Shown: positions 2,228 through 60,135 of the stretch, piece by piece
Position numbering within the stretch: the stretch's first letter is position 1
How the letters are laid out: each line of letters begins with the position of its first letter
Origin: Gammaproteobacteria bacterium
GTDB lineage: Bacteria > Pseudomonadota > Gammaproteobacteria > GRL18
Assembly: GCA_016744995.1 (NCBI GenBank)
Contig: JADGDG010000003.1
Span: 248,001-312,000, forward strand
Length of the DNA: 64,000 bases
Direction: 5' to 3'
Notes under the pieces: model-generated
Databases searched by the model: none
Told to the model about the DNA's origin: nothing
Seen by the model: only the letters and a program-made list of their open reading frames with translations
Position numbers and translations under genes: made by a program

Positions 2228-3748
2228 GTGATTAAAGAAGAACATATTGATCTGGTTCAGTCCGGAATAAATATCGCCTCAGGCCTGTTTGTTGTCACTC
2301 TGGGCCTGATTATTCTGGCCATCATCATTACCTTCATACTTGACGTAACTCAGACAAAGCAGGCGCTGCGACGTAACTACCCGGTAGTCAGCCATTTTAG
2401 ATACTTTTTTGAAACTCTGGGCGGTTTTTTTCGTCAATATTTTTTCTCTATGGATCGGGAAGAACTGCCCTTTAACAGAGCACAGCGTTCCTGGGTCTAT
2501 CGGGCAGCAAAAAATATTGATACCACAACTGCTTTTGGATCCACCCATAATATCAGTAATAAGGGCTCTGTGATTTTTGTTAATTGCCCCTTTCCAACAC
2601 TGGGTAGAGACGCAACCAGTATAAAACCCGTTCTTATAGGCGAACACTGCGAGCATCCCTATCTGGCAAAATCCATTTTCAATATTTCCGGTATGTCATT
2701 TGGGGCATTGTCCAAACCTGCAGTACTAGCCCTGTCAAATGGAGCAAGACTCTCAGGTTGCTGGATGAATACCGGAGAAGGCGGATTATCACCCTATCAT
2801 CTTGAAGGCGGTGGCGATCTGGTTTTTCAAATCGGCACAGCTAAATATGGCGTCCGTGATAAGGTCGGAAATTTTAGTGATGAAAAATTACGCCTGGTCG
2901 CAGCTCACAAACAGGTGAAAATGTTTGAAATTAAATTGAGTCAGGGGGCCAAACCAGGTAAAGGCGGTATACTTCCAGGCCCTAAAGTCACTGAAGAAAT
3001 CTCAGAAATACGAGGCATCACACAGGGTGAGGATTCCATCAGCCCCAATCGGCATGAAGACATCACCTCTATCGGTGATTTACTTGATATGATTGAACAT
3101 GTACGAAAAGTTACCGGAAAACCCGTAGGATTTAAAACTGTTATAGGAAGTTATGGCTGGCTTGATGATCTATTCAGTGAAATTCATGCCCGCGGCATTG
3201 AAAGTGCCCCTGATTTTATTACCATTGACAGCGCCGATGGTGGTACAGGTGCCGCCCCAGTGAGTCTGATGGATCATATGGGACTTGGTATTCGGGAAAG
3301 TTTACCCATTGTCGTTAATAAACTCATTGAAGAAGGTTTAAAGGACAGAATTAAAGTCATTACTTCGGGAAAACTGATTAATCCATCTGATATTGCCTGG
3401 GCCATCTGTGTCGGTGCTGATTTTATAGTCTCTGCACGTGGATTTATGTTTGCATTAGGTTGCATTCAGGCCTTACACTGCAACAAAAATACCTGTCCAA
3501 CGGGTATTACCACGCACGATCCACGCCTGCAGCAAGGATTGAATCCAGAAGTTAAGGCAATACGTGTTAAGCAATATGTAGAAAACATTTGTCATGAAAT
3601 TGGTATGATTGCACACTCATGCGGGGTCAGAGAACCAAGAGAATTAGGCCGTCACCACTGTCGAATCGTCACAGGCGAAGGCAAGTCTGTTTTTCTTGAT
3701 GAGCTTTTTCCTGTCAAGCCGCTGAGAAGGCCAAACCGTGCTGAATAA
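2228..3748 (+). CDS. Membrane-anchored FMN-binding glutamate-synthase-family protein
   Basis: This 506-residue protein (GTG start) has one N-terminal transmembrane helix (about 17-38). A glutamate-synthase central/FMN barrel (Glu_synthase family) follows from about 135 to 480. Visible barrel signatures are SGMSFGALS (154-162), NTGEGGLSPYH, IKLSQGAKPGKGG, and SADGGTGAAP (335-344). A C-x5-C-x4-C cluster at C412, C418 and C423 matches the Fe-S ligands of that family. There is no glutamine amidotransferase domain and no GltD partner nearby, so it is not a normal glutamate synthase. The membrane anchor and the 25-bp distance to the ThDP enzyme suggest a shared but unidentified pathway. Confidence 0.82.
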   Translation: MIKEEHIDLVQSGINIASGLFVVTLGLIILAIIITFILDVTQTKQALRRNYPVVSHFRYFFETLGGFFRQYFFSMDREELPFNRAQRSWVYRAAKNIDTTTAFGSTHNISNKGSVIFVNCPFPTLGRDATSIKPVLIGEHCEHPYLAKSIFNISGMSFGALSKPAVLALSNGARLSGCWMNTGEGGLSPYHLEGGGDLVFQIGTAKYGVRDKVGNFSDEKLRLVAAHKQVKMFEIKLSQGAKPGKGGILPGPKVTEEISEIRGITQGEDSISPNRHEDITSIGDLLDMIEHVRKVTGKPVGFKTVIGSYGWLDDLFSEIHARGIESAPDFITIDSADGGTGAAPVSLMDHMGLGIRESLPIVVNKLIEEGLKDRIKVITSGKLINPSDIAWAICVGADFIVSARGFMFALGCIQALHCNKNTCPTGITTHDPRLQQGLNPEVKAIRVKQYVENICHEIGMIAHSCGVREPRELGRHHCRIVTGEGKSVFLDELFPVKPLRRPNRAE

Positions 3749-22502: not shown

Positions 22503-22606
22503 ACCCTGCCAGCCACACCCCGGCACATGAGTCAGTCGCTACAGTTGCTTCCTTCCGGATCTGGCTGGGTTAACGACCTATCATTGCGAAGGGACCGACA
22601 GAGAGC
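22503..22606 (-). ncRNA. ffs: Signal recognition particle 4.5S RNA
   Basis: Read on the minus strand, the sequence contains the hallmark SRP apical region (CCAGATCCGGAAGGAAGCAA). The descending strand has GTGCCGGGGTGTGGCTGGCA, as in E. coli ffs. Its 3' segment GGCTGGCAGGG pairs with the 5' segment CTCTGTCGGTC through 11 base or G-U pairs, closing the long hairpin. Size (~105 nt) fits the bacterial short form. It partners with Ffh for co-translational targeting. The exact ends are inferred from pairing and from the -10 box. Confidence 0.92.
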
Positions 22607-38441: not shown

Positions 38442-38624
38442 AAAAGAAGATCCTTAAAAAATATGGCTATAGCATTTTCCTCCCCAAGTCCGTGCTAAAC
38501 GTGTTTATAATACGTTTACAAAATAGTTTTCAAAAATATAAAAGAAAGACAACTATTTAGTAAAAATATTAGCAAAAATACTTATGAAATTTTGCTTCAC
38601 CCTATATTTGAGTTATTTATTCTC

Positions 38625-38663
38625 TGCTGGGATGATGGACACGAGAAGCCCATCATCCCAGCA
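38625..38663. terminator. Strong 14-bp hairpin between the diheme cytochrome and nosB-like genes
   Basis: A perfect 14-bp stem (TGCTGGGATGATGG and its complement) encloses an 11-nt loop. It lies 31 bp after the cytochrome stop and 184 bp before the nosB-like start, in a 253-bp gap. No U-run follows in the minus direction. It may be an mRNA-stabilising or attenuating element that sets expression of the downstream maturation genes. Confidence 0.55.
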
Positions 38664-38694
38664 CAGAAAAGTCATCAATATAAAGATTTAATCC

Positions 38695-40086: not shown

Positions 40087-40155
40087 TCAATACGCTTATC
40101 TGTAATTTACATTACATTAAACCTAATTATAATAAGGTTTTTATTTTCTATAAAT

Positions 40156-40191
40156 GAAAGAGGGGAAGTGTTTGCACACTCCCCCTCTTTC
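40156..40191 (-). terminator. Strong hairpin just after nosZ
   Basis: A 15-bp stem with one mismatch (GAAAGAGGGGAAGTG with CACTCCCCCTCTTTC) and a 6-nt loop begins 23 bp after the nosZ stop. The following minus-strand sequence is ATTTATAG, not a U-run. Partial termination or 3'-end protection, giving more NosZ than downstream proteins, is likely. Confidence 0.6.
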
Positions 40192-40213
40192 ACTGGTTCA
40201 AGCTAATTAAAAG

Positions 40214-50293: not shown

Positions 50294-50445
50294 CTAAATA
50301 ACTATTCTTAAATAGTGCGCACTGAGTATCAACTCCTATTGTTTATTATTGTGTGATTTGACGCAGTCTGAGCACAATAATAAACAATAGGAGCTGATAC
50401 GGTCTCTCGGTAGATAATATTCACTATTTAGAAATAGTTATTTAG
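50294..50445. repeat. Long nested inverted repeat (hairpin element E1) between DUF2927 and menE
   Basis: An inner 28-bp stem with one mismatch (50326-50353 with 50373-50400) encloses a 19-nt loop at 50354-50372. An outer 24-bp stem with two mismatches (50294-50317 with 50422-50445) flanks it. The right outer arm covers the last codons of menE. The loop, read on the minus strand as TCAGACTGCGTCAAAT, recurs in the elements at 52464-52530 and 60073-60135. It sits where two convergent genes end, so it could stop both transcripts. Confidence 0.9.
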
Positions 50446-51648
50446 TTCAGACTGTTCAGAAATTAATAACTGAACCGCTTTTCGATCAATTTTTCCCATC
50501 AAATTACGTGGTATTTGCTGTACATGAATAAAAACTCTTGGCTGATAAGTTGATTTGATTTCCTGTTTAACCCAGGTTTTTATTTTATCCATATCACCAC
50601 AGAGCAGAGCAACAATTGTATCGCCCCATTCACTATTATTAATTTTTCCAATTGCAATATCAGTCACAAATTCTGATCTCAAGAGCAATGACTCAATATA
50701 TTCCGGAGTAATATTATTCCCTCCGCTAATGATCATATTGTCATTACGTCCCTGTATTGACAGAAAATGGCCATCCCACAGGACACGATCATTCGTTTCA
50801 AACCATCCATTTTCAATTTTTTCAGCAGTTGAATCGGCGTAGCCGGTAAATACACCCGGCCCCTTTATACTCAGTACATCATCAGCTGCAATGCCTATTT
50901 CAAAATCATCCAGAGGAATTAATTTATTTGCTGAGAGGCCCAGCGCAATAGTTGAACATGCCTCTGTCATGCCGTAGCTGATATATATTGGCCAGCCTGC
51001 TGCTTGCGCACGGTGAAATAATTGCTCAGATAGTTTATCACCACCCACAATAATATATTTTAAATGATCCGGTACGCATGAATCCCGGCTATGTTCCAGT
51101 AAAAGTGACAGCATTCTGGGCACCAGAGAAATATGAGTCACTGAAAAATGATGAATATCATGCCAGACTTTCTGCACATTAAAATCATCATGCAACAACA
51201 TGGTCGCATTATTAAACCAGCAGCGATAAATAATCATGACACCTGCGATGTGATTTAAGGGCAGACAATTAAGCCAGACAGATGATACTTCAATCGGGAC
51301 TTGTTTTATAAAACTATGGCAGTGTGAAATGATATTGCCACGACTTAGCAGTGCGATTTTTGCTTTGCTCTGGCTGCCGCTGGTAGCAATAGCTAATGCA
51401 AGCTCCTCAGTCTCTCTTCCAAAGAAGGGGGAGCTTAGTTCAATAAAATCTGAGCTGGCAGGAAAAACAGGGCTCTTATGAAGAAAGCCATAGAGTAGAT
51501 TAAGTACGGTAGAAAAGCGTCTCTGAGATGAAATAATGCCCTGAGACTCTATAGGAAGCTTATTAAGCTTTTGGCTCAGCTTATTCCATGAATAGAGTTT
51601 TTCCTGATAATATACATTTAACTCATAATGAATATCATTAGACAACAT
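50428..51648 (-). CDS. menE: o-Succinylbenzoate-CoA ligase
   Basis: The 406-residue adenylate-forming enzyme has an A3-like ATSGSQSKAK phosphate loop, WLNCLPLNHIAGVM, SYGMTEACSTIALG (A5), the ETNDRVLWDGHFLSIQGRNDNMIISGG hinge, and a C-terminal PRNLMGKIDRKAV with the catalytic Lys. It is slightly shorter than E. coli MenE. It starts at the stop of menG (1-bp overlap). Confidence 0.92.
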   Translation of the reverse strand: MLSNDIHYELNVYYQEKLYSWNKLSQKLNKLPIESQGIISSQRRFSTVLNLLYGFLHKSPVFPASSDFIELSSPFFGRETEELALAIATSGSQSKAKIALLSRGNIISHCHSFIKQVPIEVSSVWLNCLPLNHIAGVMIIYRCWFNNATMLLHDDFNVQKVWHDIHHFSVTHISLVPRMLSLLLEHSRDSCVPDHLKYIIVGGDKLSEQLFHRAQAAGWPIYISYGMTEACSTIALGLSANKLIPLDDFEIGIAADDVLSIKGPGVFTGYADSTAEKIENGWFETNDRVLWDGHFLSIQGRNDNMIISGGNNITPEYIESLLLRSEFVTDIAIGKINNSEWGDTIVALLCGDMDKIKTWVKQEIKSTYQPRVFIHVQQIPRNLMGKIDRKAVQLLISEQSELNNYF

Positions 51649-52370
51649 TAGTGCTTATTTATGCCCGTATGAATACAGGCAATACCAAAAAATAAATTTC
51701 GATAAATCACTTTAGAAAACCCGGCTTGTTCAATTAATGACTTCATTTCCTCCTGATGAGGGAAACGTTTAATTGATTCAATCAGGTATTGATAGGCTTC
51801 CGGCTGACCCGCCACCAAAGCGCCCAGTCTGGGAATAATGTATTGATTATACAGATTATAAAAAGGGCGAATGGGCATCATTGGCCGGGAAAACTCCAGA
51901 CAATAATACTCACCACCCGGTTTCAAAACCCGATGAATTTCGTCTAAGGCATCACTCATACTGGTCATATTACGGATACCAAAAGAAATAGTCAGTTTAT
52001 CAACACTGGAATCAGCAAAGGGCAGGCGTTCCCCAATTGAAGCAATATTCAAAACTTGCTGAGAATTAGCCTGTTTTCCAGCCTGCATCATTTCAATACT
52101 GGGATCAACAACAATAACATTAGCACCTTTCTTAGCCAGTTTGCGGGCAATATCACCAGTGCCGCCAGCTAGATCGACAATAATATCTGTTGATTTGAAA
52201 GAAATGTAGTTGACGAAAAAATGTTTCCAGATCCGATGAGTACCAAAACTCATAAAATCATTCATTAAGTCATATCGAGAGGCAACGAGCTGGAAAACGC
52301 GACGAATTTTTTTGCTGCGTTCATCTTGTGAAACGGTCTGCTGACCAAAGGTATTATCGAGTTTACTCAT
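51648..52370 (-). CDS. ubiE: Demethylmenaquinone/ubiquinone C-methyltransferase
   Basis: With the ATG at 52370 the product is 240 residues. It has a class I SAM-binding motif VDLAGGTGDIARKLAKKGA and the UbiE/MenG motif YDLMNDFMSFGTHRIWKHFFV near the N-terminus. It also has a LPFADSSVDKLTISFGIRNM segment and LKPGGEYYCLEFSRP. It is likely shared between menaquinone and ubiquinone routes (as in E. coli UbiE). It forms a two-gene unit with menE. Confidence 0.93.
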   Translation of the reverse strand: MSKLDNTFGQQTVSQDERSKKIRRVFQLVASRYDLMNDFMSFGTHRIWKHFFVNYISFKSTDIIVDLAGGTGDIARKLAKKGANVIVVDPSIEMMQAGKQANSQQVLNIASIGERLPFADSSVDKLTISFGIRNMTSMSDALDEIHRVLKPGGEYYCLEFSRPMMPIRPFYNLYNQYIIPRLGALVAGQPEAYQYLIESIKRFPHQEEMKSLIEQAGFSKVIYRNLFFGIACIHTGINKH

Positions 52371-52463
52371 GTCGGTACAAATCAATGGAAAAAATGATTA
52401 TACCCGAGTATCACTCAGAGTAGCAATACAGACAAAGTGAGAATTACTAAAACATATACAGAG

Positions 52464-52530
52464 TACAAGCTGGTGATCAGTTATTGTGTTCATACTACAT
52501 CAAATCACAATAAATGATCACTGGCTTGTA
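52464..52530. repeat. Hairpin element E2 after the rhodanese gene
   Basis: A 25-bp stem with three mismatches (52464-52488 with 52506-52530) encloses a 17-nt loop TTCATACTACATCAAAT. The loop matches that of E1 at 13 of 17 positions, while most of the stem sequence differs. It starts 7 bp after the rhodanese stop codon (minus strand), in the 167-bp gap before ubiE. Confidence 0.88.
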
Positions 52531-52537
52531 TAGGGGC

Positions 52538-53491
52538 TTAAGGTTTAACCACCGTCAGACCAACACTCAACCAGGACTGCATACCACCTCGATACCACTT
52601 AAGTTTATATGCAGGATAACCCAGTTTAATCAGAGTTTGGATATTGGTTGAAGACTGAGGACACCAGCTGCCATTACAAAACATCACCAGAGTTTTAGCA
52701 TTTCGGAAGTCACGTTTACCATCAGCAATACGCACGCCAAAGTCTTTACTCAGGATATCATCCAGAATTTTTGTCTCTGATGCCACGGCAAATGTGCCCT
52801 GTGTATCCACACTGATCTTATTCCATGGAATACTGACAGAACCTGGGATGGTGCCCTGCTGTACCCATTCAGGTGTTCTCGAATCAACAACCAGAACACC
52901 GTGGTCACCATGACTGGAACGTTTAAGATATTCTAAAACCTCTAATTCACCAATGGTACCCACACCTTTTGCAACAGTAATTGGCTGCACACAAAATGGT
53001 GGACAGGCTCTGGCTGTGTGAGTAAAAACAGATGGTATTCTGGCCTGCTTATCTGTTTCACGGGAAATTGTTACCGTCTTACCATGGTGAACAACATCAA
53101 GTCCTTTTAATGACGGAGTAATATAACCTTTACCAACTACAACCGAGCCGGAAACTCCGCCTGCACTCAGATATGATGGTGTGGTCAGATCTTTCTGAGT
53201 CTGTTGAGAAATGGCCTGTTCATAACCAAAACTTCCCTGACGCTCAGCTTTACGAGCTAACTTAGTGGCTTTATCAAACTGCCCTTCTTTCATAGCAGCT
53301 TTTGCTTTTTTAATGATCTTACCTGTATCTCTCCACTCACCTTGAACCGATGCAGCATGTTGACGAGAGGTTTCAGCTTTATCTATGGCTGCTTGTGCCA
53401 TTGCTTTTTTATCAGCAGAAAAAGCAGGGCTGCTCATTGTTGTACTGATAAGCAAAGCAAAACTTAATAATATTGCGGTCTTTGTATTCAC
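52538..53491 (-). CDS. Periplasmic rhodanese-domain protein of the sox locus
   Basis: I chose GTG at 53491, which has GGAG 6 bp upstream and a clean signal peptide, over a TTG four codons earlier. The ~317-residue mature-plus-signal product has an N-terminal helical region rich in Lys/Ala. The C-terminal rhodanese domain has DSRTPEWVQQGTIPGSVSIPW and the catalytic loop MFCNGSWCPQS (likely Cys272). It probably handles sulfane sulfur near SoxA/SoxX in the periplasm. It is encoded 92 bp downstream of soxA. Confidence 0.85.
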   Translation of the reverse strand: MNTKTAILLSFALLISTTMSSPAFSADKKAMAQAAIDKAETSRQHAASVQGEWRDTGKIIKKAKAAMKEGQFDKATKLARKAERQGSFGYEQAISQQTQKDLTTPSYLSAGGVSGSVVVGKGYITPSLKGLDVVHHGKTVTISRETDKQARIPSVFTHTARACPPFCVQPITVAKGVGTIGELEVLEYLKRSSHGDHGVLVVDSRTPEWVQQGTIPGSVSIPWNKISVDTQGTFAVASETKILDDILSKDFGVRIADGKRDFRNAKTLVMFCNGSWCPQSSTNIQTLIKLGYPAYKLKWYRGGMQSWLSVGLTVVKP

Positions 53492-53583
53492 ATTGTTCTC
53501 CAAATCTTAGGATAAGGAATTCTAAAGAATGAACTCCTGAAGATCTCTTATCCCTAAATATATTTTTATCGTTAACAGGCGGT

Positions 53584-54420
53584 TTACTTACGTGCACCAG
53601 GGCCATTGAGTTCCAAATCATTACTCATATAAGTCAAAAAATATTCCAGATTACGATATTGCTCGCCTTGAGCTTTAAATGGTTTTGCTCTGACTTGTTT
53701 GTTACAACCAGTAAAGCGTCTATGTAAAGTACCCACTGCACCCCATTTAGAGCGATAAACCGGGAAGTGTGTGGTTTGACCTAAGGCAGGACTTAAAATT
53801 TCAGAGCGAATTTGATTTCCGGCATTTTGTATATGGCAGGTTGCACAGGCAAAATTTAACTGACCTCTGCGGGTATAGAAGAATTTTTTACCATCCTCAT
53901 AAGCTGCTAATGCACCAGCATCTCCTTCCGGGATCACAACCTGAGTTTTTTTACCACGTGATTCAGATGATATATAGGAAAGTATATTGTTAATACTGCC
54001 TTTCTTGTATTTTAGTGGTTTTTCACCATTGGCTTTACGACATTGATTAAGCGCTAAAGCCATTGTTATAACCTTGGATTGCTTCTTATCCCAATGTGGA
54101 TACTTTTGTGCAATAGCAGGTCCGTCAGGAAAACAATCTTTATAGGTTTTTCCATTAGCAAATGGTTTTTCCCACATCTCCTGCCCGTCATCAACGGCAA
54201 TTTCATAAGGAGGAAATTCTTCAATAGCTTCCCAACTTTCTCTGCCTACCTTGTCATATGCATAAGCACCATTTGCAAATTCTGCTTTTTCAACACCAGG
54301 AAATCGTGTTTCAAAGTATTTTGACATTGCTTTTTTATCATCTTCTGGTGTGGCATAAGCACTTGATATTGCAGTGCTTACTATACCTGTCAGAATTAAT
54401 TTAATTATTAATTTGTTCAT
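53584..54420 (-). CDS. soxA: SoxA, heme subunit of the SoxAX cytochrome
   Basis: The 278-residue protein has a signal peptide (about 1-23), one heme site CATCH (192-196), and the SoxA heme-ligand cysteine Cys239 in RRFTGCNKQVR. The Cys pair C96 and C127 replaces an N-terminal heme. It is therefore a monoheme SoxA. With SoxX it joins thiosulfate to the carrier SoxYZ. soxX lies 71 bp upstream on the same strand. Confidence 0.95.
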   Translation of the reverse strand: MNKLIIKLILTGIVSTAISSAYATPEDDKKAMSKYFETRFPGVEKAEFANGAYAYDKVGRESWEAIEEFPPYEIAVDDGQEMWEKPFANGKTYKDCFPDGPAIAQKYPHWDKKQSKVITMALALNQCRKANGEKPLKYKKGSINNILSYISSESRGKKTQVVIPEGDAGALAAYEDGKKFFYTRRGQLNFACATCHIQNAGNQIRSEILSPALGQTTHFPVYRSKWGAVGTLHRRFTGCNKQVRAKPFKAQGEQYRNLEYFLTYMSNDLELNGPGARK

Positions 54421-54491
54421 TTTTTGACCACTATATTTAAAATAAAAAGTTTAAAAAATAAAGTAAAAAATCGTTAGAAATTTATATGCAC

Positions 54492-54863
54492 TTAAAGTGA
54501 ATAAATATAATCAACTACTTTATCTAACTCAGTTCCAGTCAGAATTTCATGGCGGCCAAATAAAGGCATAGCCGTTTCTGGATTTTTCTGTGAAGCATCC
54601 GATATTTGATCTTTTAAAGTCTGCTTATCTGGAAACCGTGATTTCATTGCAACGAGTGGTGGTGCGATATTACCGGGACTTGCGCCACCAATAATCATAT
54701 GACAGGCCAGACAGTTTCCTTTAGGACGAGAAAAAGCAATCTCTTTACCTTCCTTTATATTTTTACTTCCGGATTCTGCTGCCATTGAAGCTGACATCGA
54801 TAGTGATGTGGCAATAAAAGCAGTACCCACAATACCAAGCAGCCCTTTACTTTTTACATTCAT
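54492..54863 (-). CDS. soxX: SoxX, small cytochrome subunit of SoxAX
   Basis: Starting at ATG 54863 (after a CTGGGGGGAAAA sequence), the 123-residue protein has a signal peptide (ending MSASMAA). Its heme site is CLACH (51-55), and it has the typical SoxX motif GGASPGNIAPPL. The methionine ligand lies in PETAMPLFG. It precedes soxA and likely shares one transcript with soxA and the rhodanese gene. The 268-bp gap upstream (54864-55131) contains a modest TTGACT -35-like element but no convincing promoter. Confidence 0.94.
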   Translation of the reverse strand: MNVKSKGLLGIVGTAFIATSLSMSASMAAESGSKNIKEGKEIAFSRPKGNCLACHMIIGGASPGNIAPPLVAMKSRFPDKQTLKDQISDASQKNPETAMPLFGRHEILTGTELDKVVDYIYSL

Positions 54864-55131
54864 TATTTTTCCCCCCAGGGGTCTTTTATTGTTGTGATTA
54901 TTATTATTTAAAACTGGAAAAGACTCGAACAATCAATTAAAAGGAGCATCTGTAACGATGGGCTGAACGAGTCAAGTGCTTATTATGGCAAGATAGGTGA
55001 AAAGTAAAATTAGAAGATGTAATAATTTATATGGTGGTTTTCCTTAAGACAGGCCAAAGATATTCATTTTATTCTTTTACTAAAGCCAGGCTGGATGGGA
55101 CACTCACCCTCCCAGTAATGAAAGAGTGTTA

Positions 55132-55746
55132 TTAATCAATAAGTTTTAACAAAAGTGCCATCCGCATTAAATCCGAGAGCGTTTTAGCCGCCATTTTTTC
55201 CATTACTTTTGAGCGATGAGCTTCCACAGTGGATTGACTGATATTCATTTCAGAAGCAATAATCTTATTTCGCTTACCTTCTATGACACTTAACAAAACC
55301 TCTTTTTCCCTCGGAGTCAATTCATTATAATGATTTTCTATCTCCTCCAGACGTGATGATTCACCTCTTTGTTTAGCATCTTGTTCTATAGCCCGATGAA
55401 CTGTATCCAGCATCGACTGATTATTAAAAGGTTTTTCAATAAAGTCAATGGCACCGGCTGTCACCGCTCTTACGGCCATAGGTACATCGCCATGCCCGGT
55501 AATAATAATAATCGGTGGGTGTATTTTTTCTGCACTTAATCTAGCCTGCAGATCCAGTCCACTAATGCCGGGCATACGGACATCCAGAATAAGACAGCCT
55601 GGTTTTGAGTCATCAAATTGATCCAGATATTCCTGACCTGATGAAAAGCTTTCCGATCTTAAGCCCACAGATTCCATTAATAATGTCAGAGCACTACGAA
55701 CCTGCTCATCATCATCCACAATAAAAACACCTGATTCTTTATTCAT
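55132..55746 (-). CDS. LuxR-type response regulator (FixJ/TtrR-like)
   Basis: The 204-residue protein has a receiver domain with D55 (LILDVRMPGISG), acidic residues near its start (VDDDEQ) and the switch Lys (IEKPF). A LuxR-type helix-turn-helix follows at about 135-195 (LTPREKEVLLSVIEGKRNK, QSTVEAHRSKVMEKM). It overlaps the histidine kinase gene by 8 bp. Its place between soxX and soxB suggests control of the sox genes. Confidence 0.92.
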   Translation of the reverse strand: MNKESGVFIVDDDEQVRSALTLLMESVGLRSESFSSGQEYLDQFDDSKPGCLILDVRMPGISGLDLQARLSAEKIHPPIIIITGHGDVPMAVRAVTAGAIDFIEKPFNNQSMLDTVHRAIEQDAKQRGESSRLEEIENHYNELTPREKEVLLSVIEGKRNKIIASEMNISQSTVEAHRSKVMEKMAAKTLSDLMRMALLLKLID

Positions 55747-57901
55747 TTATCCTATCCCCCTCACTCGCTACAGGTAAAGCAAAACGAAATACAGTACCGT
55801 CACTATTATCAGAATGCAAATACAATTTGCCATGGTGTGACTCAATAATTCCCTGGCTAATAGAAAGCCCTAATCCAAGACCATTATTTTTGCTGGTAAT
55901 AAAAGGATCAAATAAGCCGTCTTTAACTTTTTCATCAATGCCCGGCCCATTATCCTCAACCGTCACCACCACAGCATTTCCTCCGGCAACTTCAGTTTTA
56001 ATCACCAGTAAACGATTATCCTTATCCATCACCTGCAGTGCATCAATTGCATTTTTCAATAAATTCAACAAAACCTGTTCGATCTGTATGGGCTGAACAC
56101 GAACTTTATACAGATTTTCATCCATTTCACGAATTATTTTAACATTCGATTTTCGAGCTTCAGGTTCAATAAATAATAATACTTCCCTAATTAAATCATT
56201 AATATTAGTTATTGAACGCTCCGGCTGCTCTTTACGTACAAACTGGCGTAATTGTTTAATTATTTCACCAGAGTGTTGAGCCTGTAAACCAATTATTTCC
56301 AGTATATCCAGAAGTTTATCTTTAGCAATGCCGCCACTTTCAAGCATCTGAATACAGGCAAAAGAATTCGTGGCAATTGCGGTCAGCGGCTGATTGAGTT
56401 CATGGGCAATTCCAGAAGCCATTTCACCCATCGTATTTAAACGAGCCATATGAGCAATTTGTTTTTGGTGCTGACGGTTTTCTTCATCAGCTTTTTTACG
56501 TTCACTGATATCCCTGAAAACAACCACACTGCCAACTACATCACCCTTATGATCAAGCATGGGAGTACTACTGTATTCAACCGGAAAACTACTGCCGTCT
56601 TTTTTCCAGAAAATATCATCATCAATATATCTTGGCTTCATATCCTTAAAGGTTAAATGCACAGGACAGTCTTCTAATTTATGTTGAGTGCCATCAGAAT
56701 GAGTATGATGTAATAAATAATGCTGGTTAGTGTTTCGAAAATCATTCATATCCCAGTCTGTAATTTCTCTCATTGAGCGATTCATAAAGACACAATGTCC
56801 CTCTGTATTAAGGCCATAAATACCATCACATACGGAGTTGAGGATTAAATCGTGCTGATATTCTAAAGAACGCTTGGATTTTTTTAACTGGGCATTCAGC
56901 CGGACAATCCAGGTACTCATAATAGTCAGTATGAACAAAGAAGTCAGTACCAGCGCAATGACTTTCCAATACCGCTCAATTGCATCCAGCAGAGTAAAAC
57001 GCCCATATTTTTCATAAGGTGCCAGACTAAGCTCTTTAAACAGTTCATGGACCTGCTGATAATCCAGGGGCACCGTCCAGCCATGTTGATTACTTCCTGA
57101 AGCAGAACTCTTCCTCATTTTAAGCAGCGCAACAGCCACTTTCTGTGCCAGCTGATTTGAGGTATGTTTGAGTTTGCTAAAGGGCCATTCAGGGTACAGC
57201 GAAGTACTGTGAATATAGGGAAAGCCATCATAAATAACCGGAGAAATAATTTTAAATTCATCAAGGCTAATGCCGCCTTCTGCAGCCATCTTTTCTAAAA
57301 TGCCACTGCGAACCATACCAACATCCGCAAAACCATTTTCAACAGCCATAACCACCTTATCATGTGTCCCGGAAAATGAAATGGAGGAAAAATCTTTATA
57401 AGGACTGAGGCCTTCTTTTTTCATCAAGCCCCATTGCATCTGGAATCCGCCAAGAGAGGTTTCATCCACTGCAGCCAGTTTCTTACCTCTTAAATTACCT
57501 AACTCCCTTATATCATTGCGTATTTTACGAGTAAAAATAACTCCGGCAAAAACATTAAGAGGGATGTCGCCCATATGATTATTCAGTGTCACAATCCGTG
57601 ATACTCGATAGCGAACTTCCATATTGACGTAAATACCAGAATTTACCAATAAGAAATCAACACGGGCCTGGCTCACCGCCAGATCGATTTCATCAAAATC
57701 AAGGGGGATTATTTCAAAACGGTAGGAATCCAGAGTATTTGACAGATACTCTGCGGTTGGTGACCAGGTTTCTCTGGTGACCTGATCACCACGATGGCTG
57801 AGAATACCAATGCGGATCAATTCATCATTATCACTGGCCAGCAAAGTCTGAGGCACAATACAGATGATAAGAGCATAGATAAAAAACAATAAAAACCGCA
57901 T
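55739..57901 (-). CDS. TtrS-like hybrid sensor kinase (PhnD-like periplasmic domain, PAS, HisKA, HATPase)
   Basis: The ATG at 57901 is preferred to a TTG at 57913. The ~720-residue protein has a signal/anchor, then a periplasmic PhnD-like substrate-binding domain (about 28-290) and a transmembrane helix (about 314-336). A PAS domain (about 350-470), a HisKA domain with His500 (GIAHELNQPL) and an HATPase domain (NLLKNAIDA, DNGPGID, GLGLGLSISQG) follow. This layout matches TtrS, which senses tetrathionate. Here it lies among sox genes with no ttrABC, so an inorganic sulfur species is the likely ligand. Confidence 0.93.
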   Translation of the reverse strand: MRFLLFFIYALIICIVPQTLLASDNDELIRIGILSHRGDQVTRETWSPTAEYLSNTLDSYRFEIIPLDFDEIDLAVSQARVDFLLVNSGIYVNMEVRYRVSRIVTLNNHMGDIPLNVFAGVIFTRKIRNDIRELGNLRGKKLAAVDETSLGGFQMQWGLMKKEGLSPYKDFSSISFSGTHDKVVMAVENGFADVGMVRSGILEKMAAEGGISLDEFKIISPVIYDGFPYIHSTSLYPEWPFSKLKHTSNQLAQKVAVALLKMRKSSASGSNQHGWTVPLDYQQVHELFKELSLAPYEKYGRFTLLDAIERYWKVIALVLTSLFILTIMSTWIVRLNAQLKKSKRSLEYQHDLILNSVCDGIYGLNTEGHCVFMNRSMREITDWDMNDFRNTNQHYLLHHTHSDGTQHKLEDCPVHLTFKDMKPRYIDDDIFWKKDGSSFPVEYSSTPMLDHKGDVVGSVVVFRDISERKKADEENRQHQKQIAHMARLNTMGEMASGIAHELNQPLTAIATNSFACIQMLESGGIAKDKLLDILEIIGLQAQHSGEIIKQLRQFVRKEQPERSITNINDLIREVLLFIEPEARKSNVKIIREMDENLYKVRVQPIQIEQVLLNLLKNAIDALQVMDKDNRLLVIKTEVAGGNAVVVTVEDNGPGIDEKVKDGLFDPFITSKNNGLGLGLSISQGIIESHHGKLYLHSDNSDGTVFRFALPVASEGDRINE

Positions 57902-58098
57902 AGTTATAATCAATTTAGAGTCATCTTTATTTTATTCTCGAGGAAACACCTTTAAATACACTAAGGAAAACCATAATATTCCATCCTGTTTTTGTCCATA
58001 TTTTTTACTTTCTACTTATTGAATAATATAGGGTAATTATTAATGAATCAATTGCCAGGGGCATGTCCTGGAATAAAATATTAAAAGAGGGTGAGCCA

Positions 58099-60012
58099 AT
58101 GACTGTTTCAAGACGTAATTTTGTCAAAATAATGGGGATAGCCGGTACAGCAACGACCGTACCTGCGCTTTTTCCAGTCTCAGCAATGAGCCAATCCAGT
58201 AAAGCCAGCCCCAATGATTTCTATAGTGTTCCGATGAAAGGTAATGCTCGCATATTGCATATTACCGATGTTCATGGTCAGTTAAATCCAGTTTATTTTC
58301 GTGAGCCTAATGTCAATCTTGGTGTGGGCGATGCTTATGGCCGCCCTCCTCATGTTGTCGGTAAAAAATTACTCAAGCATATGGGACTGAAACAAAACTC
58401 TCCTGAAGCCTACGCCTACACTTATTTAAATTTTGAAAATGTGGCTAAAATTTATGGTAAAACAGGTGGCTTTGCTCATATAAAAACCCTATTAGAACGC
58501 CTGCGTAAACAAGCAGGCGGCAAACAAAATACTCTCACCATTGATGGTGGTGATTTATGGCAGGGTTCCGGTACAGCTTTATGGACTCGCGGAGTCGATA
58601 TGGTGGAGGCCTCTAACATAATGGGCCTGGATGTTATGGTAGGCCATTGGGAATTCACTTATAAAGAAGAAGAAGTGCTAAGTAATGTCGCCCTGTTCAA
58701 AGGTGACTTTATTGGTCAAAACGTCCGGGTTAAAGAAGATGCCCTGTTTGGTGATGAATACTCAACCATGGTGGAGCGCTTTGATGGCAGCGGCCTCTAT
58801 GACGAAGACTCCGCTCATGCATTTCGCCCTTATGTGATCAAAGAAATTAATGGCGCCCGCATCTGTATTATTGGTCAGGCCTTCCCTCGTACAGGTAATG
58901 CCAATCCACAGGAATTTTTCCCGGACTGGTCATTTGGCTTACGTGAAGATGACATGATTTCACTAGTCAATGACATACAGGCCAATGAAAAGCCAGATGC
59001 CATTGTATTGCTGTCACATAATGGTATGGATGTTGATATCAAAATGGCACAAAACGTACCTGGACTGAATGCTGTGTTTGGCGGCCATACTCATGATGGC
59101 ATGCCAAAACCTGTTGAAGTTAAAAACGTCTCCGGCGGCACCTGCCTGGTTACCAATGCCGGTTCTAACGGCAAATATGTCGGCGTGATGGATTTTGATA
59201 TTCAGGATGGGAAAATCAAATCTATGAATTATCAGATGCTGCCCATTATTACTGACTGGCTGCCGGCTGATAAAGAAATGGCGGCTTATATCCAGCAGAT
59301 GCGCCAAACCAAATATTCCGACAAAATTATTGAAAGTCGTGCCAGCAAGTTTTTTTACAATAAAGACCGTGTCGGCAAAACCTATGAACAGATCCTCAGT
59401 GAAAAATTAGCCATTGCCGATCGTTTACTCTATCGCAGAGGCAATTTTATGGGCACCTGGGATCAAATACTCTGCAATGCATTAAGACATGAATACAAAG
59501 CTGACATTGCCATGTCAGCTGGTGTCCGCTGGGGTACCAGCACTCTGGAAGGCGACTGGATAACCATGGAAGATGTAATGACACAATGTGCCATTACTTA
59601 TGGTGAAACCTATGTTGCAGAAATGACCGGCCATGATTTATTGCGAATTCTTGAAGGCGTGGCTGATAACTTATTTGATCCTGATCCCTACCTGCAATCA
59701 GGTGGTGACATGGTACGCGTGGGCGGAATGGATTATACCATTGATCCGAAAAAACCCATTTACGAGCGTATTACTGAAGCCCGCCTTGATAATGGGCATT
59801 TAATTGAACCTGATGAAATCTATATGGTCGCCGGCTGGGCTTCCGTTAACCGTACACCTGAAGGACGTCTGATGTGGGATGTGGTTCATGATTACATTGT
59901 CAACCAGCGCGGTAAGGATAATATCTTACATCTGCCTAAAATCAACCACCCTAAATTAATCGGTGTGAGTGAAAACCCGGGCATTGCAGATTATCCTGGT
60001 AACCTGGGCTAA
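58099..60012 (+). CDS. soxB: SoxB thiosulfohydrolase
   Basis: The ATG at 58099 has AGAGGGTGAG upstream and begins a twin-arginine signal (SRRNFVKIMGIAG); a start at 58063 is less likely. The ~637-residue 5'-nucleotidase-family protein has metal motifs ITDVHGQ, DGGDLWQGSGT, VGHWEFTY, LLSHNGMD and FGGHTHDGMPKP. It cleaves sulfate from SoxY-bound thiosulfate in the periplasm. It is divergent from the TtrS-like kinase gene across a 197-bp region that may hold sites for both genes. Confidence 0.96.
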   Translation: MTVSRRNFVKIMGIAGTATTVPALFPVSAMSQSSKASPNDFYSVPMKGNARILHITDVHGQLNPVYFREPNVNLGVGDAYGRPPHVVGKKLLKHMGLKQNSPEAYAYTYLNFENVAKIYGKTGGFAHIKTLLERLRKQAGGKQNTLTIDGGDLWQGSGTALWTRGVDMVEASNIMGLDVMVGHWEFTYKEEEVLSNVALFKGDFIGQNVRVKEDALFGDEYSTMVERFDGSGLYDEDSAHAFRPYVIKEINGARICIIGQAFPRTGNANPQEFFPDWSFGLREDDMISLVNDIQANEKPDAIVLLSHNGMDVDIKMAQNVPGLNAVFGGHTHDGMPKPVEVKNVSGGTCLVTNAGSNGKYVGVMDFDIQDGKIKSMNYQMLPIITDWLPADKEMAAYIQQMRQTKYSDKIIESRASKFFYNKDRVGKTYEQILSEKLAIADRLLYRRGNFMGTWDQILCNALRHEYKADIAMSAGVRWGTSTLEGDWITMEDVMTQCAITYGETYVAEMTGHDLLRILEGVADNLFDPDPYLQSGGDMVRVGGMDYTIDPKKPIYERITEARLDNGHLIEPDEIYMVAGWASVNRTPEGRLMWDVVHDYIVNQRGKDNILHLPKINHPKLIGVSENPGIADYPGNLG

Positions 60013-60072
60013 ATAATAATTTCCCTAAATGCTATCTCTGGGGTACCGTCCCCGGGATATCTTCTATAATCA

Positions 60073-60135
60073 GAACAGGCCATGTATTATTTCATTCAGA
60101 CTGCGGCAAATCATGAAATAATACATAGCCTGTTC
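60073..60135. repeat. Hairpin element E3 after soxB
   Basis: A 23-bp stem with one G-U (60073-60095 with 60113-60135) encloses a 17-nt loop TCAGACTGCGGCAAATC. The loop equals that of E1 at all but one aligned position, although the stem sequence is different. It lies 61 bp after the soxB stop and 19 bp beyond the stop of the convergent gene. A small GGGG/CCCC hairpin precedes it at 60040-60053. Confidence 0.9.

Follow-up and report, generated by a model that had tools for sequence, protein, structure and literature searches.

A Putative IS630-Type MITE Family with Co-Changing Hairpin Arms in a Gammaproteobacterial Genus

Background

The known families closest to the one described here are RUP, Correia/NEMIS, and ERIC. 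Correia/NEMIS and ERIC are fairly uniform families and are not known for strongly co-diverging arms. RUP, a MITE of IS630-Spn1 in Streptococcus pneumoniae, is presented in the relevant part of PMC2229807 as a 107-bp, intergenic sequence that targets TA and whose ends match those of an IS630-family element. Members of the IS630 branch of Tc1/mariner insert at TA (PMC2170065), and a CTAG target preference of IS630 is attributed there to Tenzen and Ohtsubo (1991).

The matched arms of a hairpin could be kept by paired selection or by direct copying of one arm from the other, two explanations that are confounded in rRNA (PMC8794818). In the model proposed by the same study, stems regain their pairing through compensated changes made by intrastrand template switching, and the loop sequence is kept; its authors call the evidence for such maintenance "circumstantial".

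Three Related Hairpins in the Window

The window, a 64,000-nucleotide stretch of contig JADGDG010000003.1 from a Gammaproteobacteria bacterium (GTDB lineage GRL18), carries three hairpins, designated E1, E2, and E3 (Table 1). Stem detection and alignment confirmed the positions given in an initial annotation made from the sequence alone. Its report of near-identical loops, with E1 read on the minus strand, was also borne out, the match going beyond chance: TCAGACTGCGTCAAATCA in E1 (minus strand), TCATACTACATCAAATCA in E2 (plus), and TCAGACTGCGGCAAATCA in E3 (plus) share the pattern TCA[GT]ACT[GA]C[GA][TG]CAAATCA. Loop letters alone, at up to three mismatches, are not enriched in the window (11 found vs 7.8 expected); the claim of a hairpin family is based on exact loop matches combined with stems and genome-wide recurrence.

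The arms of E1 (50326-50353/50373-50400) span 28 bp and those of E3 (60073-60095/60113-60135) 23 bp, both being 96% paired, and the E2 stem pairs with small bulges. E1 has relatives with 80-92% identity in its own genome, and its fold is very stable (RNA z -11.5, DNA z -11.0). The stems had been described as widely different yet self-pairing. The arms do change together, but the stems are homologous, with an inner region of about 10 bp (TATTATTGTG) common to most copies. Likewise, the hairpin first recorded at E1 is real, but the element itself extends over 152 bp and includes outer terminal repeats.

Elsewhere in the window, two short hairpins with shorter loops (38614-38674 and 40148-40198) obtained weak model scores of 22.7 and 18.9 bits, and a bacterial small SRP RNA gene (Rfam RF00169, 68.6 bits) occupies 22504-22600 on the minus strand.

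Table 1. Predicted features of the three elements, with positions in the window.
Feature	Position	Strand	Basis or remark
E1, predicted complete IS630-type MITE, 152 bp	50294..50445	-	span from the C of C-TA through the G of TA-G
E1, right-end terminal inverted repeat (family orientation), CTAAATAACTATTCTTAAATAGTG	50294..50317		pairs with the opposite end in folds
E1 core hairpin, 28-bp stem	50326..50400	-	covariance model, 100.6 bits (E1 in training set)
E1 conserved loop, TCAGACTGCGTCAAATCA	50354..50371	-	genome-wide loop recurrence
E1, left-end terminal inverted repeat (family orientation)	50422..50445		terminal-repeat comparison and fold
E2, decayed copy, core hairpin	52464..52530	+	covariance model, 49.2 bits (E2 outside training set)
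E3, old copy, core hairpin	60073..60135	+	covariance model, 75.5 bits (E3 in training set)

Size and Distribution of the Family

Pattern and DNA searches revealed about 15 loop-plus-stem copies in the genome carrying the window. A covariance model (R1), built on 28 copies that included E1 and E3 and left out E2, identified copies in 11 of the 16 genus genomes; eight genomes from three sister genera of the family had none. One genome had 116 matches, a count in which one hairpin can match on both strands. The loop at up to one mismatch was found in the own genome and in nine of 15 congeners, a few of these matches being without a stem, and in none of 24 genomes outside the genus, while a reversed control pattern gave almost no matches. 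The initial annotation had allowed for a chance match, with no further copies or with unrelated loops in them; the covariance-model scan that it proposed instead found many further copies with the same loop.

A scan of 84,980 species with one exact pattern, leaving aside the window's own record, located the loop mainly in MAGs of uncultured Gammaproteobacteria, one of them deposited as Thiohalomonas sp. Loop occurrences in other phyla or outside the genus were rejected as family members, all 12 that were inspected being without a stem, and plasmid and phage collections gave no match. The underlying genomes are short-contig MAGs. Of 12 loop matches in the own genome (G000), 11 are on the contig minus strand, an imbalance that may be meaningless since contig orientation is arbitrary.

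Element Ends and a Candidate Transposase

The ends of the elements were defined by aligning copies with their flanks and by searching with the terminal repeat alone, independently of the loop. Most elements are 152-154 bp long, and inverted repeats resembling CTAAATAACTRTTCCTAAATRGTGAACA form their boundaries, the junctions being C-TA...TA-G. In 26 elements, the inverted terminal repeats are 102-117 bp apart, again with C-TA...TA-G ends in most, and one short element found through its ends (L207) has no family-type loop. The original CTAG is not directly readable at empty sites, which are too diverged; the junctions are seen in most copies.

Contig C20 of the own genome contains, at 79978-80964, a 329-aa open frame with DDE_3 (PF13358, E 1.8e-24) and helix-turn-helix domains, flanked by ends CTAAATAGCTGATCCAAAATGGTGTACA and CTAAATAGCTGTTCCGAAATGGTGTACA, also given as CTAAATAGCTGATCC and GGAACAGCTATTTAG. 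This IS element (L226, about 2446-3614) is intact and fits the IS630 branch of Tc1/mariner. Its ends are nearly those of the MITE, with about three of 28 positions differing from the MITE consensus in the same genome, and the right-end repeat of E1 resembles them. Protein searches found relatives of the transposase in only two of the 16 genus genomes, one of them broken, leaving L226 as the sole intact one found by this route. No transposase gene was recognised by eye among the ORFs in the 1.5-kb flanks of eight loci. MITE copies with odd ends were also considered as neighbours of an autonomous element, a candidate that was discarded as only ordinary genes lay beside them. Several contigs of congener G012 end near the same terminal repeat, which suggests collapsed copies.

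Ends and junctions indicate probable mobilisation by an IS630-family (Tc1/mariner) transposase, which would insert the element by cut-and-paste at the TA within CTAG-like target sequences. Judged from these sequence features, the hairpins belong to a putative IS630-type MITE family that is small, non-coding, and non-autonomous.

Insertion History and Gene Context

Empty orthologous sites, which the initial annotation had suggested looking for, were found for two copies. Both G012 and G004 lack the L006 copy of the own genome at the corresponding orthologous position, where the interval is shorter by about 156 bp, and about 104 bp containing E2, between roughly 52420 and 52537, are missing at the orthologous site in several congeners. 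E3 has an orthologous copy in G012. Its left terminal-repeat remnant starts at 60009 and overlaps the stop codon of a soxB-like gene, and E1 contributes the final codons and the stop of a minus-strand gene; both gene ends may have been created by insertion. The three copies thus differ in age, E1 being an intact MITE, E3 (also in G012) older, and E2 decayed.

Among 65 copies with enough flanking sequence, 40 lie between tandem, 19 between convergent, and six between divergent genes, and simple ORF calls placed none of the 65 within a reading frame of 100 aa or more. The three hairpins had been reported to lie right after gene ends. This position reflects a wider tendency among the 65 copies, most of which are between tandem genes. 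Insertions would tend to survive in intergenic sequence.

The family could also consist of bidirectional intrinsic terminators, unrelated to mobility. Such a role, listed among the initial alternatives and in keeping with the surplus of convergent (19/65) over divergent (6/65) settings, is highly improbable, because sequence and fold show no T-run after the E1 stem, a conserved loop of 18 nt is not something that terminators need, copy-specific mismatches have no clear G:U preference (see below), and the elements have defined transposon ends with empty sites. Terminator or sRNA roles for the hairpins are unsupported.

Co-Change of the Arms

In 28 diverse copies, compensated changes occurred in 24 of the 28 stem pairs, and 94.6% of cells pair, a percentage favoured by the choice of ungapped, mostly well-paired cores. 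These copies had 205 compensated cells, compared with 67 in shuffles (0/500 reaching 205), and sliding the partners gave no more than 42; their covariation score of 0.66 compares with 0.17 when shuffled and at most 0.12 with slid partners. Across 121 distinct copies, whose extraction required at least 17 of 28 pairs, 90.7% of cells were Watson-Crick.

Changes that are copy-specific, i.e., private within a stem cluster, comprised 23 compensated and 50 single ones. Under independent arms, an estimate from the single-change rate gives about 0.1 compensated changes. Since private states could derive from unsampled lineages, shared sites provide a stronger test. An insertion common to G000, G012, G004, and G015 (flanks 87-94% identical), judged as shared by flank comparison and with changes counted by hand on the four sequences, had five compensated pairs, two single changes, and an unchanged loop. 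Three other pairs were less clear: L001/L076 (one compensated, two single), L311/L312 (none and six), and E3/L093 (one and five). The last two decayed mainly by uncompensated changes; thus, some old copies decay uncorrected, and copying is not universal. The pair L073/L104 (five compensated, one single) is of doubtful orthology and was set aside as a shared site, as the element-adjacent sequence differs and a second element lies alongside.

Raw mismatch totals in the 121 copies are skewed (132 A:C vs 44 G:T), and inspection of the columns suggests that the A:C excess reflects mismatches inherited by many copies. Selection at the RNA level, with A:C read as G:U on the opposite strand, was considered for this excess and rejected, as it is absent from the copy-specific changes, where the 50 single ones comprise 16 G:T, 12 A:C, and 22 other. 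There, G:T is about as common as A:C, which argues against RNA-level selection, since selection on one strand would be expected to favour one wobble class.

Changes in the Loop

In copies with an 18-nt loop, mean column entropy is 0.29 for the loop and 0.94 for the arms, a comparison biased by the collection of copies through their loop; private-change rates per site are close, at 0.016 for the loop and about 0.022 for the arms combined. With L073/L104 left out, the five remaining shared sites had three loop changes, where the flank rate predicts about 10.6, and the number of arm changes was near its own expectation. Including L073/L104 as a sixth site, five loop changes were found vs 13.4 expected. 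Congeners G011 and G003 have elements of a second loop class (TCATATTGGCATAAAATCA), with stems close to those of G008. The initial view that the loop stays fixed was thus too strong, given this second class and the five loop changes counted over six sites that appear to be shared. Conservation holds within loop classes and the constraint is moderate, the loop changing more slowly than the arms without being fixed.

This slower change probably reflects selection on copies able to spread, and a protein or RNA may recognise the loop. A more specific proposal, in which the loop serves for priming or recognition while each arm is rebuilt from its partner as a step in the element's life cycle, so that the arms diversify, is speculative and quite unlikely. 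Selection could alternatively act on the hairpin as a functional RNA or DNA structure, such as an mRNA 3' stabiliser or an RNase III site, with pairing keeping the arms and the loop serving as recognition site. The stable fold, the compensated changes around an unchanged loop at the four-species site, and the shortfall of loop changes at the five shared sites agree with this reading, which is nevertheless unlikely: neither strand shows clear tolerance of wobble pairs among the copy-specific mismatches, many copies are dispensable to judge from empty sites and patchy copy number, a mirrored 23-bp insert (see below) goes beyond point compensation, and no Rfam family reached its gathering score on the hairpins, weak matches falling far below cut-offs.

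A 23-bp Insert and Proposed Arm-to-Arm Copying

In congener G008, a 23-bp insert (CCAAAAGTAGGCCCCATGAGGGG) that itself contains an inverted repeat has spread within the MITE arms and is present in 36 of the copies examined. The insert is found in the left arm only in 25 copies, in both arms in nine, and in the right arm only in two. In the right arm it occupies the mirror position, and the right-arm letters around it (ttcactgttt, or tgyaccattt-like) are those of two different stem subfamilies, from which more than one copying event is deduced. The argument draws on seven copies with a right-arm or both-arm insert and unlike flanks (L109, L111, L116, L119, L121, L139, and L280); L124, L130, L178, and L188, which are near contig ends (L124 at one), were left out. 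The perfect palindromes L129, L130, and L188 were rejected as proof of arm replacement, being likely assembly fold-backs in which the flanks are inverted too. The outer arms of L119 (501, G008) seem to have traded places around the loop, as an inversion of the core would bring about.

We infer that the arms are matched by arm-to-arm copying, the data fitting either template switching or inverted gene conversion. One arm would be recopied from the other, by intrastrand template switching at replication or by inverted gene conversion between copies, and a mutation in a single arm would thereby become a matched pair of changes, with the loop untouched. Quasi-palindrome correction, one of the explanations first listed, is supported by arm co-change and the mirrored insert.

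Matched cores might instead be imported whole by ectopic recombination between copies, with no copying within the hairpin. That stems and loops assort, G011 and G003 combining stems like those of G008 with the other loop class, is in line with such exchange, as are L221 (G011) and L263 (G002), which belong to different subfamilies and loop classes behind left flanks 97% identical over 500 bp. We regard this explanation as unlikely, as none of the copies listed is an obvious donor for the compensated states private to members of the four-species site, and the mirrored insert retains local right-arm letters around it. The L221/L263 difference may mean that one copy has replaced another, or it may come from a join made in assembly; one of the two is near a contig end.

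Overall, with a probability of about 0.78, E1, E2, and E3 are different-aged copies of one genus-restricted IS630-type MITE family whose arms are rematched by recopying. Its mobile nature, also among the first explanations, is supported by the ends, the empty sites, and the matching transposase element.

Comparison with Known Systems

No description of this MITE family was found in the literature, nor any of arm diversification with a conserved loop for bacterial MITEs. In a 2024 MITE review (PMC10969869), the passages retrieved by keyword look-ups mention stem-loop transcripts and make no mention of co-changing arms with a kept loop. With more than 100 mostly dispensable copies, insertions shared across species, single-arm and mirrored inserts, and little sign of RNA-level selection, the family makes the copying hypothesis directly testable and offers a natural test of how DNA hairpins remain matched over time. 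The family model can also be used for annotating a group of uncultured bacteria with sulfur-oxidation (sox-like) genes.

As portrayed in the corresponding part of PMC2229807, RUP resembles the present family in being small, non-coding, and intergenic, with a TA target and IS630-matching terminal repeats. It differs in length (107 bp), sequence, and host, and that part describes no conserved loop on co-changing arms. Correia/NEMIS and ERIC, which the same source outlines as MITEs of about 100-155 bp with 5'-TA-3' ends and long stem-loop transcripts, are similar in these respects and unrelated in sequence. REP/REPIN sequences, linked to TnpA-REP, are also dispersed palindromes outside genes in the accounts given in sections of PMC8266576, PMC3116915, and PMC3733652; they measure 20-40 bp, in contrast to the 152 bp, IS630-type ends, and TA junctions found here. 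The template-switch hairpins of PMC8794818 are located in rRNA, where selection acts too, whereas the present case concerns a mobile, mostly dispensable element. The family is thus new and ordinary in kind, as a predicted IS630-type MITE, and unusual in its concerted arms, the mechanism of which we infer.
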